DNA from: Moheibacter sediminis
Lineage (GTDB): Bacteria; Bacteroidota; Bacteroidia; Flavobacteriales; Weeksellaceae
Assembly: GCF_900176425.1 (NCBI RefSeq)
Contig: NZ_FWXS01000007.1
Location: forward strand, 1 to 64,000
Direction of reading: 5' to 3'
DNA length: 64,000 nucleotides
In this document: positions 4,761 to 62,975 of the stretch, piece after piece
Layout of the letters: the number at the start of each line of letters is the position of its first letter
How positions within the stretch are numbered: the stretch's first letter is position 1
Position numbers and translations under genes: made by a program
The notes under the pieces: generated by a model
What the model was told of the DNA's origin: nothing
The model's database searches: none
The model's input: the letters and a program-made list of their open reading frames with translations, nothing else

Positions 4761-4788
4761 TTTTATAATTATTTTAAATGAAGAAATT

Positions 4789-5088
4789 CTACTTTTCCAG
4801 ATAAATGCAAATTGTAAAGAGCGAATTTTTAATTGTTCCTGTTAAGGGGTTTTCCCCATTATTCAGATTTAAACCAATGGAATTTAATTCAGGGATTTCA
4901 GAAAAATTCTTGATTTTGATATTTTCTATGATATAATTTTCGCCGGCAAGCGTAACTCTTCCTCCAACTTCCAATTTGTCTTGTTCTATAAATTCATTGA
5001 TTACAGATACATCGGTCGTAGACAATATTTCCTCATCCGCAAAATTAAAAACAAATTTTATATAATAATCTAATTCTGAAATGTACAT
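4789..5088 (-). CDS. Hypothetical protein, 99 aa
   Basis: A small acidic protein without signal peptide or membrane segment. It starts MYISELDYYIKFVFNF, has a compact mixed alpha/beta pattern ('VGGRVTLAGENYIIENIKIKNF') and ends 'SLFTICIYLEK'. I do not recognise the family. It has its own terminator, and the upstream AraC gene is separated by about 100 bp of AT-rich DNA, so it looks like an independent gene. Confidence 0.6.
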   Translation of the reverse strand: MYISELDYYIKFVFNFADEEILSTTDVSVINEFIEQDKLEVGGRVTLAGENYIIENIKIKNFSEIPELNSIGLNLNNGENPLTGTIKNSLFTICIYLEK

Positions 5089-5185
5089 AATCTGTTTGCT
5101 GCTTGAGTTAAATTTAATCCGACTTATAAAACAACTTGCAAAAAAAAATAATTAAGTATCTAAAAAATAGAATAAAATTAGCGTC

Positions 5186-5983
5186 CTATAAATTCCTGAA
5201 TGAGGATGGGTTAAATCCTGTATAAGATTTGAATACTCTTGTGAAATGACTTTGGTCTGAAAATCCGCATTGCAATGCGATTTCAGTCAGGGATTCGGAA
5301 TCATTTTTAATCAATTTCAGACTATGAAAAACCCGAAGTCTTCTCATGTAACTTCCCATCGTACACCCAAAATATTTCGGAAAATATTTAGAAATAGTTA
5401 CCGGATGAACTCCGGTTCTCAAAGCCAAATCAACCAGATTGTGATTCACATACCATTCATCATTTAAAATCTGTTTCAGTTGATTGCACCACGAAATAGA
5501 TTGGTAATTTTTATAATTTTTCTCACTTACCAATTTAAATAAGATGCTGTGAATGGACGATTCCGTAAAACTGTCATTTAAAAGAAGTTCCGAATACATA
5601 TTCATAATGTAAAATGACGTGTCAAAATTTTTGGTAACCGCTTCTTTGATTTGATTTTCGCTGATGTTGTTGTTGATTAAAAAATCATAATCCAGCTCAA
5701 TATTCAAGTTTTTAGTGTTGGGATTTGTAGGAGTCGTTTGGTGCCATTCACCTGCATAATAAAACATCACTTCGTTAGATTTTCGAATGGTAGACTCTCC
5801 TTTTTTTGTTTCTAAATTTCCTCCCTGAACGATGAATGTCACATGCGGGTTTTCGTGGTAATGAAAGGCAGAATTGTAATTTTTATCATAGGAAGTTCTG
5901 CTCGCAATAATCCCTTTATACTCCTTCATCTGAAGTATATCGCCTGAATATTCACCTTTATGCAGCGTTAAAATCCCTTCCAT
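5186..5983 (-). CDS. AraC family transcriptional regulator
   Basis: 265 residues. The N-terminal half is a cupin-like sensor domain ('SAFHYHENPHVTFIVQGG', 'NEVMFYYAGEWHQTTP'). The C-terminal about 100 residues hold the two helix-turn-helices of AraC/XylS proteins, with the signature 'IALQCGFSDQSHFTRVFKSYTGFNPSSFR'. The effector and target genes are unknown. No neighbouring gene is an obvious target: the next gene on the same strand is an unknown 99-residue protein. Family assignment is secure. Confidence 0.93.
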   Translation of the reverse strand: MEGILTLHKGEYSGDILQMKEYKGIIASRTSYDKNYNSAFHYHENPHVTFIVQGGNLETKKGESTIRKSNEVMFYYAGEWHQTTPTNPNTKNLNIELDYDFLINNNISENQIKEAVTKNFDTSFYIMNMYSELLLNDSFTESSIHSILFKLVSEKNYKNYQSISWCNQLKQILNDEWYVNHNLVDLALRTGVHPVTISKYFPKYFGCTMGSYMRRLRVFHSLKLIKNDSESLTEIALQCGFSDQSHFTRVFKSYTGFNPSSFRNL

Positions 5984-54017: not shown

Positions 54018-54616
54018 GTTTTTCTTACCAAACCATAGCCAATCCGGTTGAAGAAATTACTTTCAAAGAAAAAGGAAGTAAATTCATCGGTTATGCTTTT
54101 CCGGTACATGATGAGGGCGAAATCAAAGAAAGGTTAATTCAATTGTGGCAGAAATATCCCGAAGCGACACATATTTGTTATGCTTTTCGATTGGGAATCG
54201 ACGGCGAAAGATACAGAGCCAATGATGACGGAGAACCTTCAGGTAGCGCGGGTTTGCCTATCTATAATCAAATTGTTTCTAAAGAAATTACCAATGTTTT
54301 GGTTGCTTCCATACGCTTTTATGGCGGAACGAAATTAGGTGTTTCGGGATTGGTAAAAGCATACAAACTTTCGGCGCAAATGGCTTTGGACGAAGCTGAA
54401 ATTGTAGAAAAACATTTGACCGAAAAAGTGAAATTTGAATTTTCTTATGAAGACCAGGGAAGTGTCATGCGCAACATTGATAAGTCCAATGCTGAAGTAA
54501 TTTCTACAGAATTCACAGACAAATGTGTAGTAATTGTCAGAGTGCGAAAAGACAATTTAGATAATTTTTTGGCATTGTTTGAACCGCTTTATCAGGTTAA
54601 AATTTCTATTTATTAA
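54014..54616 (+). CDS. YigZ/IMPACT family protein
   Basis: 200 residues of the UPF0029/IMPACT family. 'ITFKEKGSKFIGYAFPVHDE', 'ATHICYAFRLG ... RYRANDDGEPSGSAGLPIYNQI' (in parts) and 'VASIRFYGGTKLGVSGLVKAYK' are diagnostic, plus a C-terminal ferredoxin-like domain. IMPACT-type proteins bind Gcn1 in eukaryotes; the bacterial role is unclear. It is co-transcribed with ribD. The last 4 bp overlap the convergent response regulator. Confidence 0.94.
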   Translation: MSFSYQTIANPVEEITFKEKGSKFIGYAFPVHDEGEIKERLIQLWQKYPEATHICYAFRLGIDGERYRANDDGEPSGSAGLPIYNQIVSKEITNVLVASIRFYGGTKLGVSGLVKAYKLSAQMALDEAEIVEKHLTEKVKFEFSYEDQGSVMRNIDKSNAEVISTEFTDKCVVIVRVRKDNLDNFLALFEPLYQVKISIY

Positions 54617-55245
54617 ACAATCCTCTGCTTAATAGCTTTCGAAACCGCTTCATTCATCGAATGCACCTGCAGTTTTTCATAAACGGTGCGGATGTACTGC
54701 CTAACGGTATTGATGGAAATGCCCAATTCTTCACCAATCATTTTGTAGCTGTTGCCGTTGACTAAAGATTGTAGGATTTCTTTTTCTCTTTTGGTCAAAT
54801 TATAATCTTGTGTAGGAATGTTTTGAATTAGTGAAAAAGCCTGAATTACTTTCCGCGCAATTGGCGAACTCATTGGCGAGCCCCCGTCCAGAACATCGTG
54901 AATGGATTCTACGATTTTTTCAGGTGTTGATTTTTTGAGCAGATAACCTTTTGCGCCCAGACAGATACTTTCAAAAACATATTTATCATCTTCAAAAACC
55001 GTGAGCATGATGACCGGAATTTCTGAGTTTGTTTTTGCAAGAATCTTCAATCCGTCCAAACCGTTTTTTACAGGCATATCGATGTCCATCAAAATCACAT
55101 CAGGCATGTAATGTTGCATGATTTTTTCGATCAGCTCGCAGTTTTCCCAACCGCCGATACATTTCATATCGGTATTGGAATTCAGAAATTCCATCAACTG
55201 TTCCCGCAAAACAGGGTTATCTTCAAATACAGCAACTTTTATCAT
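54613..55245 (-). CDS. NarL/LuxR-type response regulator
   Basis: 210 residues from ATG 55245, which gives MIKVAVFEDN; an earlier in-frame ATG adds seven residues. The receiver domain has the phospho-acceptor Asp54 in 'ILMDIDMPVKNG' and the conserved Lys in 'GYLLKKSTPEKI'. The C-terminal LuxR helix-turn-helix is 'LTKREKEILQSLVNGNSYKMIGEELGISINTVRQYI' (parts). It pairs with the sensor kinase just upstream. A -7 box and a motif shared with two downstream units precede it, suggesting that it regulates itself and the surface-protein block. Confidence 0.96.
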   Translation of the reverse strand: MIKVAVFEDNPVLREQLMEFLNSNTDMKCIGGWENCELIEKIMQHYMPDVILMDIDMPVKNGLDGLKILAKTNSEIPVIMLTVFEDDKYVFESICLGAKGYLLKKSTPEKIVESIHDVLDGGSPMSSPIARKVIQAFSLIQNIPTQDYNLTKREKEILQSLVNGNSYKMIGEELGISINTVRQYIRTVYEKLQVHSMNEAVSKAIKQRIV

Positions 55246-55263
55246 AAGGTCTCGATTTATATC

Positions 55264-55310
55264 CAAATTTATACGAATTAAATTTCCCCTGTCCTCACAT
55301 CATTATGCGT
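55264..55310 (-). promoter_or_regulatory. Response regulator promoter with shared motif (inverted)
   Basis: On the minus strand TAAATTTG (55271-55264) is a perfect -7 box. CGCATAATGATGTG (55308-55295) is the inverse of the motif at 57581 and 60057. Motif centre to box is 30.5 bp, against 31.5 bp at the other two sites. The motif overlaps the last codons of the kinase gene. Confidence 0.55.
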
Positions 55311-57501
55311 ATGGAAATGAAACATAAATCTGAGTTCCACTTTTATTCGAACTGATTTCAAACTTTCCTTTTTGGTTCTCAGTTCTCATCTTCATATTTT
55401 TCAAACCATTGCCCAATTTTACTGTACTCAAATCAAACCCAACGCCGTTGTCTTTGATTTTCATGTGGATTTCATGTGGATTTTTCATGATTGAAATTTT
55501 AGCAAAATCGGCTTGTGAATATTTAGACAAATTGTTCAGCGCTTCTTTAAATATCAAATAAAAATCCCTTCTTTTTTCAGGAGAAAACTTCACTTCATTC
55601 AAAGAATCGTCTATTTCAAATTGGTAATCGATTTTATTATTTTCCAAGATATTTACAGTAAATTCTTTCATGCGAACGATGATTTGTCTGAAATTATCAT
55701 TATCCGGATTCATACTCCAAACTATGTCACTGATGTTTTCCATCACATTTTGGGTGTTTTCTTTAATTTTTTCAATTTGAACTTTGGTTTTAGATTCTTC
55801 TAGATTTAAATCTTTTATGGCTGAATGTGAAATCAAATTGATTGCTGTAAGCGTACTTCCGACTTCATCATGCAACTCTGATGAAATACGGTTTCGTTCT
55901 TTGATGATGAGATTTTTCTGTTCGATTTTTTTCTTGAGTAAAATTCTATTAACTAAAAATGCGATGGAAATCAATACAATTAAAAAAGAAGCAATTCCCA
56001 GATTTCTGGTCAGATTTTGATTTTGAATTTTTCGTTCCTTAAGTTCGTTTTCTTGGTATGCAATTTTCTTTTGTTGTTCAAGAGAATGGATTTGAGCCTG
56101 ATTCATTTTGAGAAATTCATTCTGCTGTGAAATTTTTAAATCATTGATTTCCTTTGTTTTAACTAGTATTTCAATTTCCCTTTGCTTTTGCTCCGCTTCG
56201 ATTAAATTTCCTCTGATCAAAGCATTTTTCTTTTCTATTTCGAGATTTTTGATTTTTGAATCGATTGCCAAACGTTCTATTTCAGCTTCTTTTTTCTCAG
56301 TTTCGTATTTCACTTCCAGCTCATGAAAGTTCTTTTTGGAAGTTTCATTGAGAATGGAATCCTTGTAGGCATGAAAATTTTCTAAATATCCATAAGCAGT
56401 TGCAGGATCATTTTTTACATTTTTATAATAGAAATTCAGCGAGCCGTACCAATCCCTGACTGCGCCATTGTCTTTAGCTTCCAAAGCTTTCTGGTAGCTT
56501 TCTTCATAGTAGCGGTTCATCTTTTCTTCATCACCCGTATAACCTGCAAACATTCCGGCTACTCTTGTATAACGGTATAGTTGGTGGCGGTTGATTTCCT
56601 TTCCGTATTCTATGGCTTCTTCCATATATTTCAGTGCATTGGGGCGGTCTTTTTGAGCATGGTATGCCATCGCCAGATCAACCAGGCTGATAAATTTCGT
56701 TTCCGGTTTTTTGGAATTTTGAGCAAATCGGTTGGATTCTTTGTAATAATAAATAGCAGAATCCATCTGATTTATTTTATTATAAATGCGTGCTAGGTTG
56801 GAAAGCTGTACACACAGGTTTTCATAATCTTTTGCTCTTTTTCTGGATTGAATTGCCTTGTGTGAATACTGTATCGACTGTGCGATTTCACCCATATAAA
56901 AATAAACGTTCGAAATATTTACATAAACCAACCCTGCAGATTCTGGTTCGTTTTCCTTTTCATACATCTGAACTGATTTCTGATAATAGTCAAGTGCCGA
57001 AGCATATTCATTATTTTTTTCTTTGACAGATCCGAGCGTATAGTAAATTTCAGCCGTTATGCTGGATTTTATTGGTGGTTTTCCTGCTATTCTCAATGCT
57101 TCGTTCAGATATTCGGTCGATTTAGACAGTCCGCCTTCCTTGTTTTTAAAGTATAAACTTTTGGTCCAGAGCAAACCCATTTTGATTTCTTTTTCATGAT
57201 TAGGATTGGAGATTTTAAGATTTTCAATGACAGCCCATTCTTTTGCAACATTTTTGTCGTATCCCAATTCTATATCATAAAAAACCTTTTTGATCAGCCC
57301 CATTCCATACCCGAAGTTGTTTTTTTCTTTTTGCGAATTTGAAATCAATTCATCCAGAGTTGTATAAGCTTTTTGAGATTCCGAAGCATCATAATAGGTT
57401 TTGGCCTCGTCTAATTTTTTACCGATATAGTCGGTATTGACGATCTGTGAGAACATCGAAACCGATAGAAAAAGTAGTATCAAACTCCATTTGAAACGCA
57501 T
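55303..57501 (-). CDS. TPR-containing sensor histidine kinase
   Basis: 732 residues. A signal peptide is followed by about 350 residues of periplasmic tetratricopeptide repeats (units such as 'AEIYYTLGSVKEKNNEYASALDYYQKSVQMYEK', in parts). A long coiled coil follows, then one membrane helix ('LGIASFLIVLISIAFLV') and a cytoplasmic HisKA_3/HATPase pair. The phospho-accepting His544 is in 'ELHDEVGSTL', the N box is 'EALNNLSKYS' and the G box is 'DNGVGF'. It phosphorylates the NarL-type regulator encoded next on the same strand. The sensed signal is unknown; the TPRs suggest protein or peptide binding. Confidence 0.95.
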   Translation of the reverse strand: MRFKWSLILLFLSVSMFSQIVNTDYIGKKLDEAKTYYDASESQKAYTTLDELISNSQKEKNNFGYGMGLIKKVFYDIELGYDKNVAKEWAVIENLKISNPNHEKEIKMGLLWTKSLYFKNKEGGLSKSTEYLNEALRIAGKPPIKSSITAEIYYTLGSVKEKNNEYASALDYYQKSVQMYEKENEPESAGLVYVNISNVYFYMGEIAQSIQYSHKAIQSRKRAKDYENLCVQLSNLARIYNKINQMDSAIYYYKESNRFAQNSKKPETKFISLVDLAMAYHAQKDRPNALKYMEEAIEYGKEINRHQLYRYTRVAGMFAGYTGDEEKMNRYYEESYQKALEAKDNGAVRDWYGSLNFYYKNVKNDPATAYGYLENFHAYKDSILNETSKKNFHELEVKYETEKKEAEIERLAIDSKIKNLEIEKKNALIRGNLIEAEQKQREIEILVKTKEINDLKISQQNEFLKMNQAQIHSLEQQKKIAYQENELKERKIQNQNLTRNLGIASFLIVLISIAFLVNRILLKKKIEQKNLIIKERNRISSELHDEVGSTLTAINLISHSAIKDLNLEESKTKVQIEKIKENTQNVMENISDIVWSMNPDNDNFRQIIVRMKEFTVNILENNKIDYQFEIDDSLNEVKFSPEKRRDFYLIFKEALNNLSKYSQADFAKISIMKNPHEIHMKIKDNGVGFDLSTVKLGNGLKNMKMRTENQKGKFEISSNKSGTQIYVSFPYA

Positions 57502-57522: not shown

Positions 57523-57554
57523 CAAATTTAATGAAAATTTGAATTAGACCGCAA
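57523..57554 (-). promoter_or_regulatory. Sensor kinase promoter
   Basis: On the minus strand, TTG (57554-57552), a 21-bp spacer and TAAATTTG (57530-57523), 22 bp before the ATG. The shared motif at 57581 lies upstream of it. Confidence 0.6.
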
Positions 57555-57580
57555 ACTTAAATCATACATGTTTAAAGCTC

Positions 57581-57628
57581 TACACATCATTATGCGATGT
57601 TATTTGTTTCCTGATTAAATGAATTTTG
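57581..57628 (+). promoter_or_regulatory. Shared regulatory motif and -7-like box, site 1
   Basis: TACACATCATTATGCGAT (57581-57598) followed 40 bp from its start by GAATTTTG (57621-57628). The motif core contains ACATC...GATGT inverted. A -33 TTG at normal distance is missing, as expected for an activator-dependent promoter. It drives the 57647 gene. Confidence 0.6.
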
Positions 57629-57646
57629 GACTAAAATCATATCAAG

Positions 57647-58729
57647 ATGAAAACACTATTATTTTTTACAATGATGTTGGTCGCTTTAGGGTTAAGCGCA
57701 CAAGAGAAGTTTTTTAAACATATTGCGACTGCGCCTACCATCGCTTGGGCAAATGTTTCGATTTTAGATCATCCTTTACTAAACGGAAGTCCCGACGCCA
57801 AAGTTTTTATTTCTCATTATAGAGATGGCGAATCCAACAACCATCGTTCGGGCGTTTTTTATTTTGATGGCAGATGGTACATTTACCAGGAAGATTGGGA
57901 ACCGATCAAAGTCAATTCAGCTTACATGGTTTACATTGCCGATGCTGATGATGCATTCAGACATGATGTCGCTCTTCCCATGATTTCTTCTATGTTAGAC
58001 CATTCTATCATCAATGGTTCTTCAGATAAAAACCCTGTTTATACACATGTCAATGTCGCCAACAATGACTTATGTGATTTCAATTTAGGATTTGCTTATG
58101 ACGCCGGATTTGGAACCTGGAACCTGACCAATTTATCCTTGGAAAATATCCCTTCTCCATCTTCTTATTTCATAACAGCCGAAGGGGCAGACCCTGCAAT
58201 TATTGGCTACCGACACGTTACAGATTCAGAAAATTTGATAGATGGCGGATGTACTGTAATTGATCATCCACAATTAAACCTTAACGAAAATGCAGGTATC
58301 GTTTTCTCTCATCATTATGGCTCTGTTGACAATCCTACCGGAAATGTGATGGTCGATAAGACTTTCGCTATCCAATATAACTGGGCGCGGGGAGATTGGA
58401 GGATTTGTACAGAGGATTTTACCACCATACCCGAAGGAGCGCGATTCAATTTACTATTTCAGGCAGATGCTATTATGAACACCAATGAAACTCAAATTGA
58501 AAATTCTTCGACAGCTTATCCAAATCCAATCATTGACAAAGTCAATTTCAGTTCAAAATCAATTATCCAGAAAATCTCCGTCCATGATTTTTCAGGTAAA
58601 ATCATTTCAGAATCAAATCCCGATTCAGATAAAATTACAATGGATTTATCCAAATTAAGAGCAGGTATTTATGTAGCCAAAATCCAAACAAAAGAAGGTG
58701 TTCAAACTATTAAATTGATTAAAAAATAA
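57647..58729 (+). CDS. Secreted T9SS type A protein with DHPLLNG repeats (DUF7452-like)
   Basis: 360 residues. Signal peptide MKTLLFFTMMLVALGLSAQ. Three or four repeats of about 75 residues follow, each with an aromatic/His strand, 'xxDHPLLNGxPDAKVFxxH', then a 'W.IY..D...I' strand: 'VSILDHPLLNGSPDAKVF', 'MLDHSIINGSSDKNPVY', 'VIDHPQLNLNENAGIVF'. They resemble DUF7452 modules. A type A sorting domain starts at 'AYPNPIIDKVNFSSKSI'. It is exported and cell-surface or secreted; the ligand is unknown. It is the first of a tandem pair, 23 bp before its paralogue. Confidence 0.85.
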   Translation: MKTLLFFTMMLVALGLSAQEKFFKHIATAPTIAWANVSILDHPLLNGSPDAKVFISHYRDGESNNHRSGVFYFDGRWYIYQEDWEPIKVNSAYMVYIADADDAFRHDVALPMISSMLDHSIINGSSDKNPVYTHVNVANNDLCDFNLGFAYDAGFGTWNLTNLSLENIPSPSSYFITAEGADPAIIGYRHVTDSENLIDGGCTVIDHPQLNLNENAGIVFSHHYGSVDNPTGNVMVDKTFAIQYNWARGDWRICTEDFTTIPEGARFNLLFQADAIMNTNETQIENSSTAYPNPIIDKVNFSSKSIIQKISVHDFSGKIISESNPDSDKITMDLSKLRAGIYVAKIQTKEGVQTIKLIKK

Positions 58730-58752
58730 ATTCTTAAGCTAAAATTACAATT

Positions 58753-59838
58753 ATGAAAGCAATTTTTACTGTCATTCTGATTTTATCGTTGCAAATCATA
58801 TTTGCTCAGGATAAAATGTTTACAATCACATCCACAGGCGAAAATATTTCAGGACACAGACTGTTGATTGATCATCCCCTTACAAATGATATCCCCGCGG
58901 CTGTAGTCATTGCAAACTACAACACAAATCCAAATGGCATTGCAGCAGGAGAGGAAAATCCGGTTCCCAATAAACCTATTTTCGCATCCTATACAGGACT
59001 TCATAATAAATGGTACATTGCTTTGAAAGACCTGACTCCTATGCTGGAAAACCTGAGTTTCAATGTGTATATCGCAGATACTGACAAAGGATTTAAACAT
59101 ATTGCCGACACAGAAAACTCAGATCCAAACTACACCTATCTCGATCATCCTCAGCTCAACGGAAACCCCGATAACATTACGCTCATGACCTCCGAATCAG
59201 TCGAAAACGCACACCAGGGAATTTGGTATTTCGAAAACCGTTGGTCGATTTACAATGAAAACGGCTCATTGTTCCATATTCCTTCTTATTCCAACATCGT
59301 TGTAGGCGGAGATGATGTCCAAACTTTCAGGCATACAGTCACGGCAGAAAATATCCATCCCATGTGGGCAGATGTGGCAGTTTTAGACCATCCATTATTA
59401 AACGGAAACCCCGACGCAAAATTCGTCTTTACGCACAATTGGGGACAGACAGGCGGAACCCAAATTATTTTAGACAAAGCCCTCATGGCAGAGTATTTCG
59501 ACGAAAGGTGGAATATCAGTACCACAAATCTCACAGATATGACCATCGGAGCCATGTTCGACATTTATGTGTATGATCAAACCATGTCAGTCAATGATTT
59601 AAATAACCAAAATGAAATTAAAGCTTATCCCAATCCTGTAATTGATAAAGTAAATTTCAATTCAAAATCAATAATAGAAAAAATTTCTATTTATAATTTA
59701 TCGGGGAAATTAATCTCAGAATTAAATGCAAATGCAGACAAAGCCGAAATTAACTTATCCAAATTAAATGCAGGAATTTACATCGCTAAAATTCAAACCA
59801 AACAAGGAACTAAGCTGCTCAAACTCATAAAAAAATAG
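58753..59838 (+). CDS. Second DHPLLNG-repeat T9SS type A protein, tandem paralogue
   Basis: 361 residues, the same design as the preceding gene: signal peptide (MKAIFTVILILSLQIIFAQ), then repeats containing 'LLIDHPLTNDIPAAVVI', 'YLDHPQLNGNPDNITLM' and 'VAVLDHPLLNGNPDAKFVFTHN'. The sorting domain is nearly identical to its neighbour ('AYPNPVIDKVNFNSKSIIEKISIYNLSGKLISE', parts), so the pair arose by duplication with conserved C-termini and diverged repeats. A terminator follows, so the pair forms one transcript. Confidence 0.85.
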   Translation: MKAIFTVILILSLQIIFAQDKMFTITSTGENISGHRLLIDHPLTNDIPAAVVIANYNTNPNGIAAGEENPVPNKPIFASYTGLHNKWYIALKDLTPMLENLSFNVYIADTDKGFKHIADTENSDPNYTYLDHPQLNGNPDNITLMTSESVENAHQGIWYFENRWSIYNENGSLFHIPSYSNIVVGGDDVQTFRHTVTAENIHPMWADVAVLDHPLLNGNPDAKFVFTHNWGQTGGTQIILDKALMAEYFDERWNISTTNLTDMTIGAMFDIYVYDQTMSVNDLNNQNEIKAYPNPVIDKVNFNSKSIIEKISIYNLSGKLISELNANADKAEINLSKLNAGIYIAKIQTKQGTKLLKLIKK

Positions 59839-59913
59839 GCTTATTTTTAATTGTGTCAAGAATCTGTTTTTTGAAATAAAGTCTATGTGTTAATTGAAAC
59901 AGATTCATCCCCT

Positions 59914-59943
59914 CGGGTAAACAATAGGTTTACCCGATTTTTA
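59914..59943 (+). terminator. Terminator after the tandem T9SS genes
   Basis: A perfect 9-bp stem CGGGTAAAC / GTTTACCCG (59914-59922 and 59928-59936) with a 5-nt loop, followed by a T-rich tract. Confidence 0.8.
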
Positions 59944-60056: not shown

Positions 60057-60104
60057 TACACATCATCATGCGATTTCTTTCCCTCTTTGAATTCCTCAAT
60101 TTTG
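60057..60104 (+). promoter_or_regulatory. Shared regulatory motif and -7-like box, site 2
   Basis: TACACATCATCATGCGAT (60057-60074), one mismatch from site 1, followed 40 bp from its start by CAATTTTG (60097-60104). The arrangement and missing -33 are the same as at 57581. It drives the 60128-60640-61644 operon. Confidence 0.6.
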
Positions 60105-60127: not shown

Positions 60128-60628
60128 ATGAAGAAATTAATCCATTTACTTACCGCATTCATACTATTGGCAATGATTGCCTGTAGCAGCGACGACGAAT
60201 CCTCCAGTTCCATAACCGGAGAAAGCATACTCAAAATGAATATCGACGGCACGCATTGGGAAGCCGACAGTCATATCGTGATCGGCCAGTCGGAAACAGA
60301 GGGAATGTACAATTTTACGTTTACAGGGAGAAATTCCAGTTTCAACGGTGCAGTCTCCTCCATTTCAGCCATCTTTTCCGTAAGCGAAGACATCACGTCA
60401 GGAACTTACGAACTCTCAGGAAGCGGAGCAGGTGTGACCATCACCGGAATAAACGGAGGAACCTACATGGGCGGCTGGATTACCAGCACCACATTTACCA
60501 TTCAAATTACCGAAGTTTCAGGCAGCGGAGCCAACAAAAAATTCAAAGGAGCTTTTGCAGGAACTTTAAAGGGCGCTTCTTCAGACGATACCATCATAGT
60601 TACCAACGGCGAATTCTCAACTTTCTAA
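60128..60628 (+). CDS. Hypothetical surface lipoprotein
   Basis: 166 residues. A lipoprotein signal (MKKLIHLLTAFILLAMIAC) with Cys19, then SSDDESSSS, an acidic export signal of the Bacteroidota type, so a surface location is likely. The body ('ILKMNIDGTHWEADSHIVIG', 'YNFTFTGRNSSFNGAVSSISAIFSV', 'GTYELSG') is a beta-rich fold of unknown family. It is the first gene after motif site 2 and lies 11 bp before the leucine-rich T9SS gene. Confidence 0.8.
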   Translation: MKKLIHLLTAFILLAMIACSSDDESSSSITGESILKMNIDGTHWEADSHIVIGQSETEGMYNFTFTGRNSSFNGAVSSISAIFSVSEDITSGTYELSGSGAGVTITGINGGTYMGGWITSTTFTIQITEVSGSGANKKFKGAFAGTLKGASSDDTIIVTNGEFSTF

Positions 60629-60639
60629 ATTCAATCATT

Positions 60640-61632
60640 ATGAAAACATTTATCTTTCCTTTTATAATGATTTTGGGATTTATTTTCGTTAAATCCCAAA
60701 TCGTTGAAATCCCCGACGCAAACCTCAAAAATGCATTGCTCACTTACGATCCGGCCATTGATACGAACACAGACGGAGAAATCCAAGTATCGGAGGCCGA
60801 AGCCGTTTGGTATCTTTATATTCCGGAAGCAAACATATCAGATCCTACCGGAATGGAAGCTTTTATAAATCTCAGATCACTTGATTTGACACAAAACAAT
60901 CTCACAAATATTAACTTAACATCTTTAACGCAATTAACCGGATTAGGATTAGGCAATAATCAAATCACTTCCATAGATGTTTCCCAAAATGTATTATTAA
61001 TCAGTTTAGTTTTGAATTCGAATAATTTAACTGACTTAGATGTTACTCAGAATCCAAACTTAGAATTACTTTATCCCTCCAGTAATCCTGGTTTATCGGA
61101 ATTGGATTTGTCTCAAAATCCAAATCTTAAAAATGTGACCATTTTAAACAATAATTTTACTGAACTGGATTTTTCAAACAATCCTTTGTTGACACACGTT
61201 AGTTTGTCCGATATGGACAATCTTACACTCATCAACCTCCAAAACGGAACCAATGCAACACTCACCAACGTTTGGATTTCCGGATTTTTGCCGGCGTTGC
61301 AATGCGTTCAGGTCGATGTCGATGTTGTTGACAATATTCCGGAATCCTGGGTTTATAATGAAGAAATCAACTTCAGTGCAGATTGTGCTTTAGGTACAAA
61401 TAATTTGTCTGAATTGGAATTAAAAATTTATCCAAATCCCGTTCAGGATGTTTTAAATATTTCTTCTCCAAAGAAATTTGAAGAGGTTCAAATTCATGAT
61501 GCAAACGGAAAATTAGTTTCCAATTCAAATCAAAATAAAATTTCACTGAAACATTTACCAGCCGGAATTTATTGGATTCAAATTCAAATAGAAGGAAAAG
61601 TTTACCATGAAAAAATTATTAAAAACAATTAA
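60640..61632 (+). CDS. Secreted T9SS type A leucine-rich repeat protein
   Basis: 330 residues from ATG 60640 (the longer frame upstream is only a read-through of another gene). Signal peptide MKTFIFPFIMILGFIFVKSQ. The mature part starts 'VEIPDANLKNALLTYDPAID', as in many Bacteroidota LRR proteins. Leucine-rich turns follow ('LRSLDLTQNNLTNINLTSL', 'LTGLGLGNNQITSIDVSQN', 'LSELDLSQNPNLKNVTIL'). The sorting domain is 'IYPNPVQDVLNISS ... HLPAGIYWIQIQIEGK'. It is a probable surface adhesin or binding protein in the operon driven by motif site 2. Confidence 0.9.
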   Translation: MKTFIFPFIMILGFIFVKSQIVEIPDANLKNALLTYDPAIDTNTDGEIQVSEAEAVWYLYIPEANISDPTGMEAFINLRSLDLTQNNLTNINLTSLTQLTGLGLGNNQITSIDVSQNVLLISLVLNSNNLTDLDVTQNPNLELLYPSSNPGLSELDLSQNPNLKNVTILNNNFTELDFSNNPLLTHVSLSDMDNLTLINLQNGTNATLTNVWISGFLPALQCVQVDVDVVDNIPESWVYNEEINFSADCALGTNNLSELELKIYPNPVQDVLNISSPKKFEEVQIHDANGKLVSNSNQNKISLKHLPAGIYWIQIQIEGKVYHEKIIKNN

Positions 61633-61643
61633 AAACATAAAAG

Positions 61644-62975
61644 ATGAAACTTTTATTTCCATTAATGATAATGCTGTTTGGAATCCAGATTTCAAACGCA
61701 CAAAAAATCCTTGAAAAATTAGGGGACAAAGCCATCGATGCAGCAGAAAAAACTGTTGAAAGGCGTGTCGAAAAAGAATCTTCCGAAAAAACCGATAAAG
61801 TTTTAGATGGAGTTTTCGAAGGGAAAAAGGACAAAAAATCTAAAAAAGACAAGAAAAACAAAAATAACAAGGAAAATTCTTCTGAAGAAAATAATAACTC
61901 CAATTCATCTTCTTCAAAATCAGTCAATAGAAGTTCAGATTTCGAGCCCGGAAATCAGGTTTTAGTAATGGAGGATTTTGTGCAAGATGCCATCAATGAT
62001 TTTCCTGCGAATTGGAATACAGACGCTTCCGGAAAAGTTGTGACGATTTCTGATTTAGATGGAAAATGGTTGGAATTGACCACAAATGGTGCATTCATCA
62101 TGCAGTCTGTGAGGTCTTTACCTGAAAATTTCACATTTGAATTTGACCTTTATGTTGCGCCTTCCTTTTCATATTACGACCAGCCTTTATGGTTGGGAAT
62201 GGTGAATTTGAATTCACAGAAAGAATTTCCGATCTGGAAAAGATTTTGGGAAAAACGAGGAAAAGAAAAACGAAACGGAGTGCTTTTGCAGATGCATCCG
62301 CAACAAGAAGGCGGTCAGAAACTCGGATTCAGTGAATATGAAATCTGGGAACACGGAAACAAACCTTTTTCCAATGTTTTGAAAGGAATTAAAAATTTCA
62401 ACTTAAACAATAATAATTTGGTCAAAGTTCAAATTTGGCGACAAGGAAAAAGACTGCGCGTTTATTTCGGTGATGAAAAAATCTGGGATCTGCCTCAGGC
62501 TTTTGATGGAAATTCTAAAATCAATTCTTTGATTTTCAGTAGGGGAGAAGCGAAAGAAGGAAATTATTTTTACTTATCCAACATTCGATTGGCGACCAGC
62601 GGAGAAGATGTGCGCTCCCAAATTTTAAAAGACGGAAAATATTCGACCAACGCGATTTTGTTCAATTCAGGTTCTTCCAAATTAAAGTCAGAATCTGATT
62701 CATCCATCAAAAAAATTGCAGATATTTTGAAAGAAAATCCCGATTTGAGGCTTAAAATCATCGGGCATACAGATGCGGATGGTGATCAAAATGCCAATTT
62801 GAGATTATCAAAAGAAAGAGCCGAATCGGTCAAAAATGAATTGATAAATATATATGGCATCAATTCTTCTAAATTACAAACTGATGGAAAAGGCGAGAGC
62901 GAACCGGTCGCAGAAAATTCAACTTCTGAAGGCAAAGCGCAGAACAGAAGAGTAGAATTTATCAGAATAAATTAG
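61644..62975 (+). CDS. OmpA family outer-membrane-associated protein
   Basis: 443 residues. Signal peptide MKLLFPLMIMLFGIQISNAQ, then a Lys/Ser-rich linker (about 35-95). A jelly-roll-like beta domain follows ('FTFEFDLYVAPSFSYYDQPLWLGMVN', in parts). The C-terminal OmpA peptidoglycan-binding domain is 'PDLRLKIIGHTDADGDQNANLRLSKERAESV' (parts). It anchors to peptidoglycan in the periplasm. There is no beta-barrel, unlike classical OmpA. It starts 11 bp after the LRR gene and ends the operon; a terminator follows. Confidence 0.9.
   Translation: MKLLFPLMIMLFGIQISNAQKILEKLGDKAIDAAEKTVERRVEKESSEKTDKVLDGVFEGKKDKKSKKDKKNKNNKENSSEENNNSNSSSSKSVNRSSDFEPGNQVLVMEDFVQDAINDFPANWNTDASGKVVTISDLDGKWLELTTNGAFIMQSVRSLPENFTFEFDLYVAPSFSYYDQPLWLGMVNLNSQKEFPIWKRFWEKRGKEKRNGVLLQMHPQQEGGQKLGFSEYEIWEHGNKPFSNVLKGIKNFNLNNNNLVKVQIWRQGKRLRVYFGDEKIWDLPQAFDGNSKINSLIFSRGEAKEGNYFYLSNIRLATSGEDVRSQILKDGKYSTNAILFNSGSSKLKSESDSSIKKIADILKENPDLRLKIIGHTDADGDQNANLRLSKERAESVKNELINIYGINSSKLQTDGKGESEPVAENSTSEGKAQNRRVEFIRIN

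Follow-up and report, generated by a model that had tools for sequence, protein, structure and literature searches.

Type A cargo of the type IX secretion system (T9SS) combines a signal peptide with a C-terminal sorting domain and, according to an excerpt of PMC9143113, is anchored to anionic lipopolysaccharide. NarL/LuxR-type two-component systems with TPR kinases couple a HisKA_3 and HATPase kinase to a REC and GerE regulator, and DUF7452 (PF24249, a domain of unknown function in Pfam) is joined to signalling in PknB-like kinases of Rubrobacter and Chloroflexota. Here, we analyzed a stretch of 64,000 nucleotides from Moheibacter sediminis (contig NZ_FWXS01000007.1, positions 1 to 64,000; hereafter the window), in which two tandem genes for T9SS proteins with DUF7452 repeats (57647..58729 and 58753..59838, + strand) lie beside a TPR sensor kinase and a NarL-type response regulator. 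No publication on DUF7452/PF24249, its repeat peptides, or the system as a whole was found in the open-access library searched.

The locus shares features with each of these systems and differs from all of them. Both window proteins have the signal peptide and sorting domain of type A cargo. For their N-terminal parts, in contrast, neither Pfam nor NCBIfam returned a characterised adhesin or enzyme family. The kinase and regulator have the domains of NarL/LuxR systems, but their candidate target motif is confined to one locus, and its sequence differs in a congener. The PknB-like proteins differ in being one fused chain, in belonging to other phyla, and in using another kinase class. With regard to structure, the predicted array of repeats is all-beta like the PCSK9 C-terminal domain and the resistin trimer, and its whole length of 260 residues aligns with PCSK9 456-682; however, the score is weak, sequence identity amounts to 3–10%, and the array is not disulfide-rich. 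We see a likeness of arrangement and claim no kinship.

We consider it moderately probable that the locus is a self-contained, regulated surface cassette with a ligand-binding three-part head. The TPR kinase (55303..57501, - strand) and the NarL-type regulator (54613..55266, - strand) would act via a locus-private operator at three spacers and would control three transcription units, i.e., the regulator itself, the DUF7452 pair, and a unit encoding a lipoprotein, an LRR protein, and an OmpA protein. The DUF7452 proteins would be exported by the T9SS and then be fixed to the surface or released, each exposing one compact head of three units of ~83 amino acids around a pseudo-threefold axis, a trimer fused in one chain. 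This head may be the ligand-binding part, serving adhesion or recognition, and may diverge quickly and be exchangeable at the locus, while the sorting tail and the regulators stay. A two-component pair that controls itself, an exported and fast-changing head, and envelope partners are together best explained as an adhesion or recognition cassette, and the surface recognition system suggested in the original prediction is a reasonable, though tentative, reading.

The DUF7452 gene pair and its three-unit arrays

The two open reading frames are intact and follow each other head to tail in the same direction with a gap of 23 bp. They encode proteins of 360 (protein 1) and 361 (protein 2) amino acids, each with a signal peptide, three DUF7452 units, and a T9SS sorting domain. 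PF24249 matched three stretches per protein with E-values of 6e-41 (139.9 bits) and 1.7e-53 (180.3 bits), both whole-protein scores lying above the curated cut-off of 28.2 bits, and the T9SS type A model TIGR04183 (NCBIfam, cut-off 23) scored 50.1 bits for protein 1 and 57.5 bits for protein 2. The original prediction of tandem secreted proteins with a signal peptide, three repeats resembling DUF7452, and a type A domain was confirmed by these matches and the reading frames. Using our own hidden Markov model (HMM) of the unit, we located the units of protein 1 at 57713..57943 (E 4e-22), 57977..58186 (E 6e-9, the weakest of all), and 58208..58465 (E 3e-20), and those of protein 2 at 58819..59079 (E 5e-22), 59092..59310 (E 1e-18), and 59326..59577 (E 2e-22), all on the + strand. 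The sorting domains follow on the same strand at 58517..58720 (PF18962, TIGR04183) and 59626..59829 (PF18962); the latter aligned with solved T9SS sorting domains over 71–78 residues with Z-scores of 9.4–11.1 (VIA-align). Signal peptides were judged by eye at both N-termini, and the structural model of protein 2 has a helix at residues 2–13.

In the 3.23 Mb genome, we found six DUF7452 matches, all of them within these two genes; its relatives, as judged by DUF7452 and T9SS, are Bacteroidota, mostly Flavobacteriales. The T9SS cargo set of the genome is large, comprising 114 sorting-domain matches at E 0.001 in 3.2 Mb; for comparison, genome G467 has 56 in 2.4 Mb. The original prediction had allowed for the repeats belonging to a well-characterised enzyme domain, and here the arrays matched no enzyme family or catalytic domain in Pfam and NCBIfam at E 0.1. 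Enzyme-named NCBIfam matches sit at the sorting tail, far below their cut-off, and the sole extra Pfam match within an array was the beta-sandwich family LtfC (13.8 bits, cut-off 27).

Stand-alone DUF7452 domains match only positions ~31–118 of the 118-position PF24249 model. In tandem arrays, successive matches overlap, and the first ~30 positions of the model lie in the preceding repeat. The true unit is ~83 amino acids long, which corrects the Pfam boundary. The HMM search proposed in the original prediction, run with our model of 83 positions, revealed exactly three units in each window protein; the model may include the window units themselves, and PF24249 alone likewise gives three stretches each.

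We then counted units with this HMM in 62 DUF7452 loci from one scan of a named genome collection together with the two window proteins. Three units were the most frequent state (34 proteins), followed by six (13), two (12), and one (5); 47 of the 64 proteins have three or six units, and none has four, five, or seven. After removal of six proteins that were masked or cut by a contig end, 33, 12, 9, and 4 of 58 proteins remained with three, six, two, and one unit, respectively; L045, L046, and L056 were kept, since in these the open end of the frame lies away from the array. A scan of the Chloroflexi phylum gave 14 open reading frames in twelve other matching genomes, with three units in seven, six in four, one in two, and two in a single frame cut by a contig end. 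Eight of these look new relative to the 62 loci (3, 3, 3, 3, 6, 6, 1, and 1 units), while the remaining six resemble earlier proteins by their equal unit spacing, as judged by eye. Further frames within the genomes of the 62 loci have six units (two in G474, one in G471), three units (G465 and G467, where PF24249 adds a fourth, overlapping match below cut-off), or two units (G455 and G459, Rubrobacteraceae), besides broken copies in G460 and G468. Same-position units of the Flavobacteriales triplets are 0.45, 0.34, and 0.42 identical, compared to 0.27–0.36 across positions; no such positional signature was seen in 21 other three-unit or 12 six-unit proteins.

Structure prediction, likewise proposed in the original prediction, was carried out with AlphaFold2 and 58 sequences and yielded a mean predicted local distance difference test (pLDDT) score of 91.9 and a predicted template modelling (pTM) score of 0.77 for the whole of protein 2. 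Fold searches with the whole protein returned the sorting domain or multidomain matches of low TM-score, and we therefore predicted and searched the array alone (residues 21–280). Its pLDDT rose to 95.0 and its pTM to 0.92, with 18 strands, six per unit, in an all-beta model. A pTM of this height means that the three units are predicted in a fixed mutual relation, i.e., as one rigid and compact all-beta body.

In the PCSK9 C-terminal domain, three modules of a single chain are arranged around a pseudo-threefold axis; resistin is a homotrimer, and the modules of both are disulfide-rich. Foldseek found no match for the array in the PDB at E 0.001, which does not make it a new fold; the matches that cover the array at a query TM-score of 0.28–0.37 are PCSK9 (best E 0.019). 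VIA-align placed model residues 1–257 on PCSK9 456–682, with Z-scores of 2.8–4.2 over 155–188 residues and a root-mean-square deviation of 4.6–5.5. The PCSK9 C-terminal domain is described as homologous to resistin in the title of 2qtw and in an excerpt of PMC4474570; an excerpt of PMC3820617 gives no structural support. Fibre or coiled-coil stalks of the kind that carry single DUF7452 units in other proteins (described below) are often trimeric, and single units on such stalks are what a three-part head would need. Reading unit counts, single-unit settings, and structure together, we infer that DUF7452 triplets are single-chain pseudo-trimers, with fair though not conclusive support for the threefold packing.

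Several observations speak against this packing. The PCSK9 match is weak, all VIA-align Z-scores lie within the range that the tool calls common, and the top row (9k09_U, Z 4.9) spans the first unit only. Three unrelated chains also match most of the array (8zwq, Z 3.4; 7byf_C, 2.9; 8qdo_B, 2.8), and the disulfide-rich character is absent, protein 2 having no cysteine and protein 1 three. With regard to counts, twelve two-unit proteins and three one-unit kinases mean that three is no strict rule. Eight of the twelve two-unit proteins come from Rubrobacteraceae or related actinobacteria, two are dipeptidase-like (L077, L079), and two are cut (L071, L085); three of the five one-unit proteins are the Rubrobacter Ser/Thr kinases L032, L034, and L036. 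A ‘2 + 1’ heterotrimer in Rubrobacter was considered and is not supported, as the three draft genomes with one-unit kinases (G450–G452) show no other DUF7452 match. Matches to the first unit include the phage tail or baseplate proteins 9k09_U, 7rfv, and 9vzk_Y (‘in C3’).

Kinase linkage and a three-copy motif

The kinase carries TPR, HisKA_3, and HATPase_c domains (Pfam) and is transcribed divergently from the DUF7452 genes. Downstream of it, the regulator has REC (PF00072, 2e-22) and GerE (PF00196, 1.7e-16) domains; its listed start is a TTG, with an ATG seven codons further in, and a syntenic copy exists in the congener G003. The window order of regulator, TPR kinase, and, divergently, two DUF7452 genes, lipoprotein, LRR-T9SS protein, and OmpA protein is matched on contig C335 of G003 by regulator, TPR kinase, and, divergently, one DUF7452 gene, LRR-T9SS protein, and OmpA protein, with a HisKA_3/HATPase kinase beside a REC-GerE regulator as in the window. 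G003 is the only DUF7452 carrier among five congeners, two of which are less than 82% complete, and its locus kinase is the sole full-length match to the window kinase among them (34% identical, E 2.8e-110). In the other four, the best kinase match (2.6e-36) covers the kinase half of a 623-residue frame with weak TPR matches. Five other DUF7452 genomes gave no match to the window kinase at 1e-30, and a second DUF7452 gene of G003 (L108) lies elsewhere, with no kinase there.

The original prediction had asked for the kinase linkage in relatives, and the link is real: besides the gene order kept in G003, a sensor kinase, response regulator, or AraC-type gene adjoins DUF7452 at 8 of 18 Bacteroidota loci (window, L107, L050, L053, L067, L074, L158, and L039). 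At two more (L064 and L076), a regulator lies within three genes without being adjacent. This sample includes some short contigs, two near-identical loci (L075 and L078), and three pairs of loci that share a genome (L068/L157, L074/L158, and L107/L108). Regulators occupy 8 of 37 adjacent positions compared to 2 of 130 genes more than three genes away (Fisher p = 1e-4, a value that shared ancestry inflates). HisKA_2 kinases at L076 and L039 escaped the regulator models but were found by Pfam, so the background of 2/130 may be too low as well. The TPR kinases at DUF7452 loci belong to three HisKA classes. As a counterpoint to a dedicated link, no regulator was found within three genes at the other eight loci (L108, L061, L068, L157, L073, L075, L078, and L084).

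With 114 sorting-domain and 32 HATPase matches in the genome at E 0.001, cargo and sensor kinases are both frequent enough that some could lie together by coincidence. We regard this explanation of the locus as very improbable. An HATPase match lies within 3.3 kb of three of the four DUF7452 genes but of only 7 of 146 other cargo genes (p = 2.2e-4 by loci; at 2.5 kb, 2/4 and 4/146; at 4.5 kb, 4/4 and 8/146), a count that covers the window's genome (G000) and G467, both chosen for showing the link, and 150 of their 170 sorting-domain matches. Chance proximity also fits poorly with the gene order kept in G003 and with a motif that is unique to the locus in both genomes.

This motif occurs in three spacers of the window. 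Copy 1, ACATCATTATGCGAT, lies in the divergent spacer between kinase and DUF7452 genes (57584..57598), 48 bp before the ATG at 57647; copy 2, ACATCATCATGCGAT, lies 53 bp before the lipoprotein ATG at 60128 (60060..60074); and copy 3, with a ACATCATTATGCG core and two mismatches to the 15-base form, lies at the stop of the kinase gene, ahead of the response regulator (55297..55311). The pattern ACATCATNATGCG has exactly three copies in the whole 3.23 Mb genome (99.5% complete), all at the locus, and the 14-base form CATCATNATGCGAT has two, at 57584 and 60060. At the G003 locus, we found a different, palindrome-like motif, CTACATAANTRTGTA, again with exactly three copies in the genome (81% complete) and all at its locus. 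One copy precedes the regulator (6396), one sits between the kinase and DUF7452 genes (4116), and one precedes the LRR gene (2803); the spacers are equivalent to those of the window. The motifs are 13–15 bp long, and the backward control gave 0 copies in both genomes. Dinucleotide shuffling of the three spacers produced an equally good match in 0 of 1000 cases for the window and in 2 of 1000 for G003. Both patterns were written after the copies had been seen, and we therefore take genome-wide uniqueness as the stronger evidence.

Three copies at equivalent spacers in two genomes make it probable that the two-component pair regulates itself as well as the surface genes, with the motif as a candidate operator that the adjacent regulator would bind. 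Since the kinase pair and a genome-unique three-copy motif lie beside the head genes, the locus has the appearance of a self-contained switch governing an exposed, putative recognition protein. A terminator-like hairpin of 10 pairs with a T tract behind it (59913..59937, + strand) lies after protein 2. Among three such sites in the region, where 3.6 are expected by chance, its stem is the longest; it fits two transcription units with one motif copy each. A scan for sigma-70 promoters was uninformative (20 found, 19.6 expected). What we take to be a Bacteroidota-type promoter pattern occurs at 57523–57555 on the - strand; with nine matches in the window compared to 6.6 expected, it says little.

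Weighing against the regulatory reading, the 15-base form with up to two mismatches has three matches in the window compared to 0.9 expected, and 8 of 100 shuffles reach three. Moreover, no comparable shared motif was found at eight other regulator-linked loci: a search of L074, L050, and L158 yielded no more than one T-rich 14-mer pair, located in L050 and differing by one mismatch, and the best pairs at L064, L076, L039, L053, and L067 had at least two mismatches in 14. The window motif itself is not present at the G003 locus beyond chance (two matches with three mismatches, 1.1 expected). If the regulatory reading is true, genome-unique three-copy motifs of different sequence at equivalent places in two species would form a clean case of co-change between operator and regulator.

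The DUF7452 proteins could also stand upstream of the kinase, as a secreted ligand-sensing part that it reads rather than as output only. Their genes adjoin a single kinase divergently, and DUF7452 is fused C-terminally to Ser/Thr kinases in Rubrobacter and Chloroflexota. However, the sensor of the window kinase consists of TPR repeats, and the genome has many related TPR kinases (16 matching stretches), so that a surface protein is not a necessary input; the motif, in turn, places the DUF7452 genes downstream. In our view, a sensing role is improbable.

Divergence and possible exchange of the arrays

According to the original prediction, the sorting domains of the pair match almost residue for residue while the repeats diverge. 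The former claim was too strong, as the sorting domains are 68% identical (48/71); the repeat regions are 31% identical over 248 columns and 27% in a wider alignment. Among 136 pairs from 17 proteins, no other pair has sorting domains that surpass the repeats in identity by as much as those of the window pair (0.68 vs. 0.27, excess 0.41). The other 135 pairs have a mean excess of −0.03 and a maximum of 0.24, i.e., on average, conservation is slightly higher in the array than in the sorting domain. The window arrays also have the longest end branches of 16 (2.62 and 2.17, median 0.63). For the sorting domain, we calculated 1.7 synonymous (dS) and 0.20 non-synonymous (dN) substitutions per site; for the repeats, dN was 0.78 and dS not computable. 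A duplication, if there was one, was not recent given a dS of 1.7.

These data support a fast change of the exposed part. The excess may reflect either fast change of the arrays or homogenisation of the tails between tandem copies, which are not exclusive, and the long array branches favour the former. Of the proposed duplication with fast change, the fast divergence of the repeats stood, borne out by the 136-pair comparison and the branches, while the duplication is left undecided by the arrays: the full-length tree favours a sister relationship of the two genes (87/88), and the arrays by themselves neither establish nor reject it (approximately unbiased (AU) test, p = 0.41).

The array of G003 clusters with that of Aequorivita todarodis (L064; 99/96) despite the synteny of its locus with the window, and a clade joining it to both window arrays was rejected (p-AU = 2e-6), which suggests that the exposed part may be exchangeable. 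This reading is tempered by the choice of the joint clade, made on synteny but after the first tree had been seen, and by the length of the window branches.

Distribution, partners, and neighbouring genes

PF24249 is sparse, occurring in 3 of 59 genomes, in 7 of 395 genomes of the window's phylum (the window's own included in both), and in 13 of 301 genomes from the phylum to which the Chloroflexi record G448 belongs (G448 included). The 62 loci come from about nine phyla, a distribution biased to the two peptide patterns used, with phyla assigned from record titles. These name Chloroflexota, Rubrobacter and other Actinobacteria, Planctomycetota, Myxococcota, Acidobacteria, Thermoanaerobaculales, Ignavibacteriales, KSB1, Lysobacterales, another gammaproteobacterium, and Bacteroidota. 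In phage records, protein P0002 matched with its sorting tail only (two records), there was a weak PHROG match (0.0038), and the peptide patterns used confirmed no relative in IMG/VR.

The partners of DUF7452 vary widely. Outside the kinases, single units end fibre-like proteins, most with GVYG-type repeats (L017–L021, L082, the fragment L070, and L150; by eye), or lie behind a membrane segment and a Gln/Glu/Met-rich stretch that resembles a coiled coil (L149; by eye); Pfam names only DUF7452 in L018, L020, L150, and L149. Beta-helix-like proteins are also among the partners. In other phyla, PknB-like Ser/Thr kinases carry DUF7452 as their C-terminal, presumably extracellular, part, with one unit in Rubrobacter (L032, L034, L036) and three in Chloroflexota (L052, L062, L081); Pfam was run on L032 and L081, and the others were judged by eye. 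Units lie N-terminal to a dipeptidase-like amidohydrolase domain in L016, L077, L079, and L148 (Peptidase_M19 by Pfam in L077, the rest by eye), and before a sortase-like domain in Rubrobacter and actinobacterial metagenome-assembled genomes (L038 by Pfam, PF04203; L051, L058, and L060 by eye).

So diverse a set of partners, together with the eight Bacteroidota loci that have no regulator within three genes, would suit a generic accessory or structural module, such as a spacer, fibre cap, or stabiliser, with the window proteins forming an ordinary T9SS coat. A coat would hardly need array divergence exceeding that of the sorting tail, kinase fusions, or a dedicated two-component pair with a locus-private motif, and we judge this account rather unlikely. 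Returning to the regulated cassette, a broader joint reading can be put forward only tentatively and is itself doubtful: DUF7452 would be a widespread trimer-forming recognition domain, assembled as homotrimers on stalks or as single-chain pseudo-trimers with units in multiples of three, and in this genus of Bacteroidota, private cassettes would each combine a TPR kinase/regulator pair that runs itself through a genome-unique operator, an exchangeable secreted head, and an OmpA/LRR unit. Head and operator of such a bacterial surface-recognition cassette would change between species, whereas its layout would be kept. Our results propose for DUF7452 an architecture that can be put to the test, namely one trimer in each chain; they also correct the boundary of its unit and place it in a regulated setting whose DNA sites are precisely located.

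A second DUF7452 setting, in Flavobacteriaceae and without a kinase, is represented by L073, L075, L078, and L157, where the neighbours are a small lipoprotein-like gene and 2-oxoacid dehydrogenase-type genes (by eye). In L050, a second DUF7452 gene is split over two frames (4765–5881), owing to a frameshift, a pseudogene, or a sequencing error.

Downstream of the pair and on the same strand, the window encodes a small predicted lipoprotein of 166 amino acids (60128..60628; by eye, no Pfam match at E 0.001) and an LRR-type T9SS protein of 330 amino acids (60640..61632; PF18962, 1e-14; PF12799, 1.3e-5, below cut-off) with a relative at the G003 locus. The last gene of this group encodes an OmpA-family protein of 443 amino acids (61644..62975; PF00691, 2.3e-23), whose relatives at the G003 locus (47% identical) and in L074 (45% over 352 amino acids) likewise follow DUF7452.

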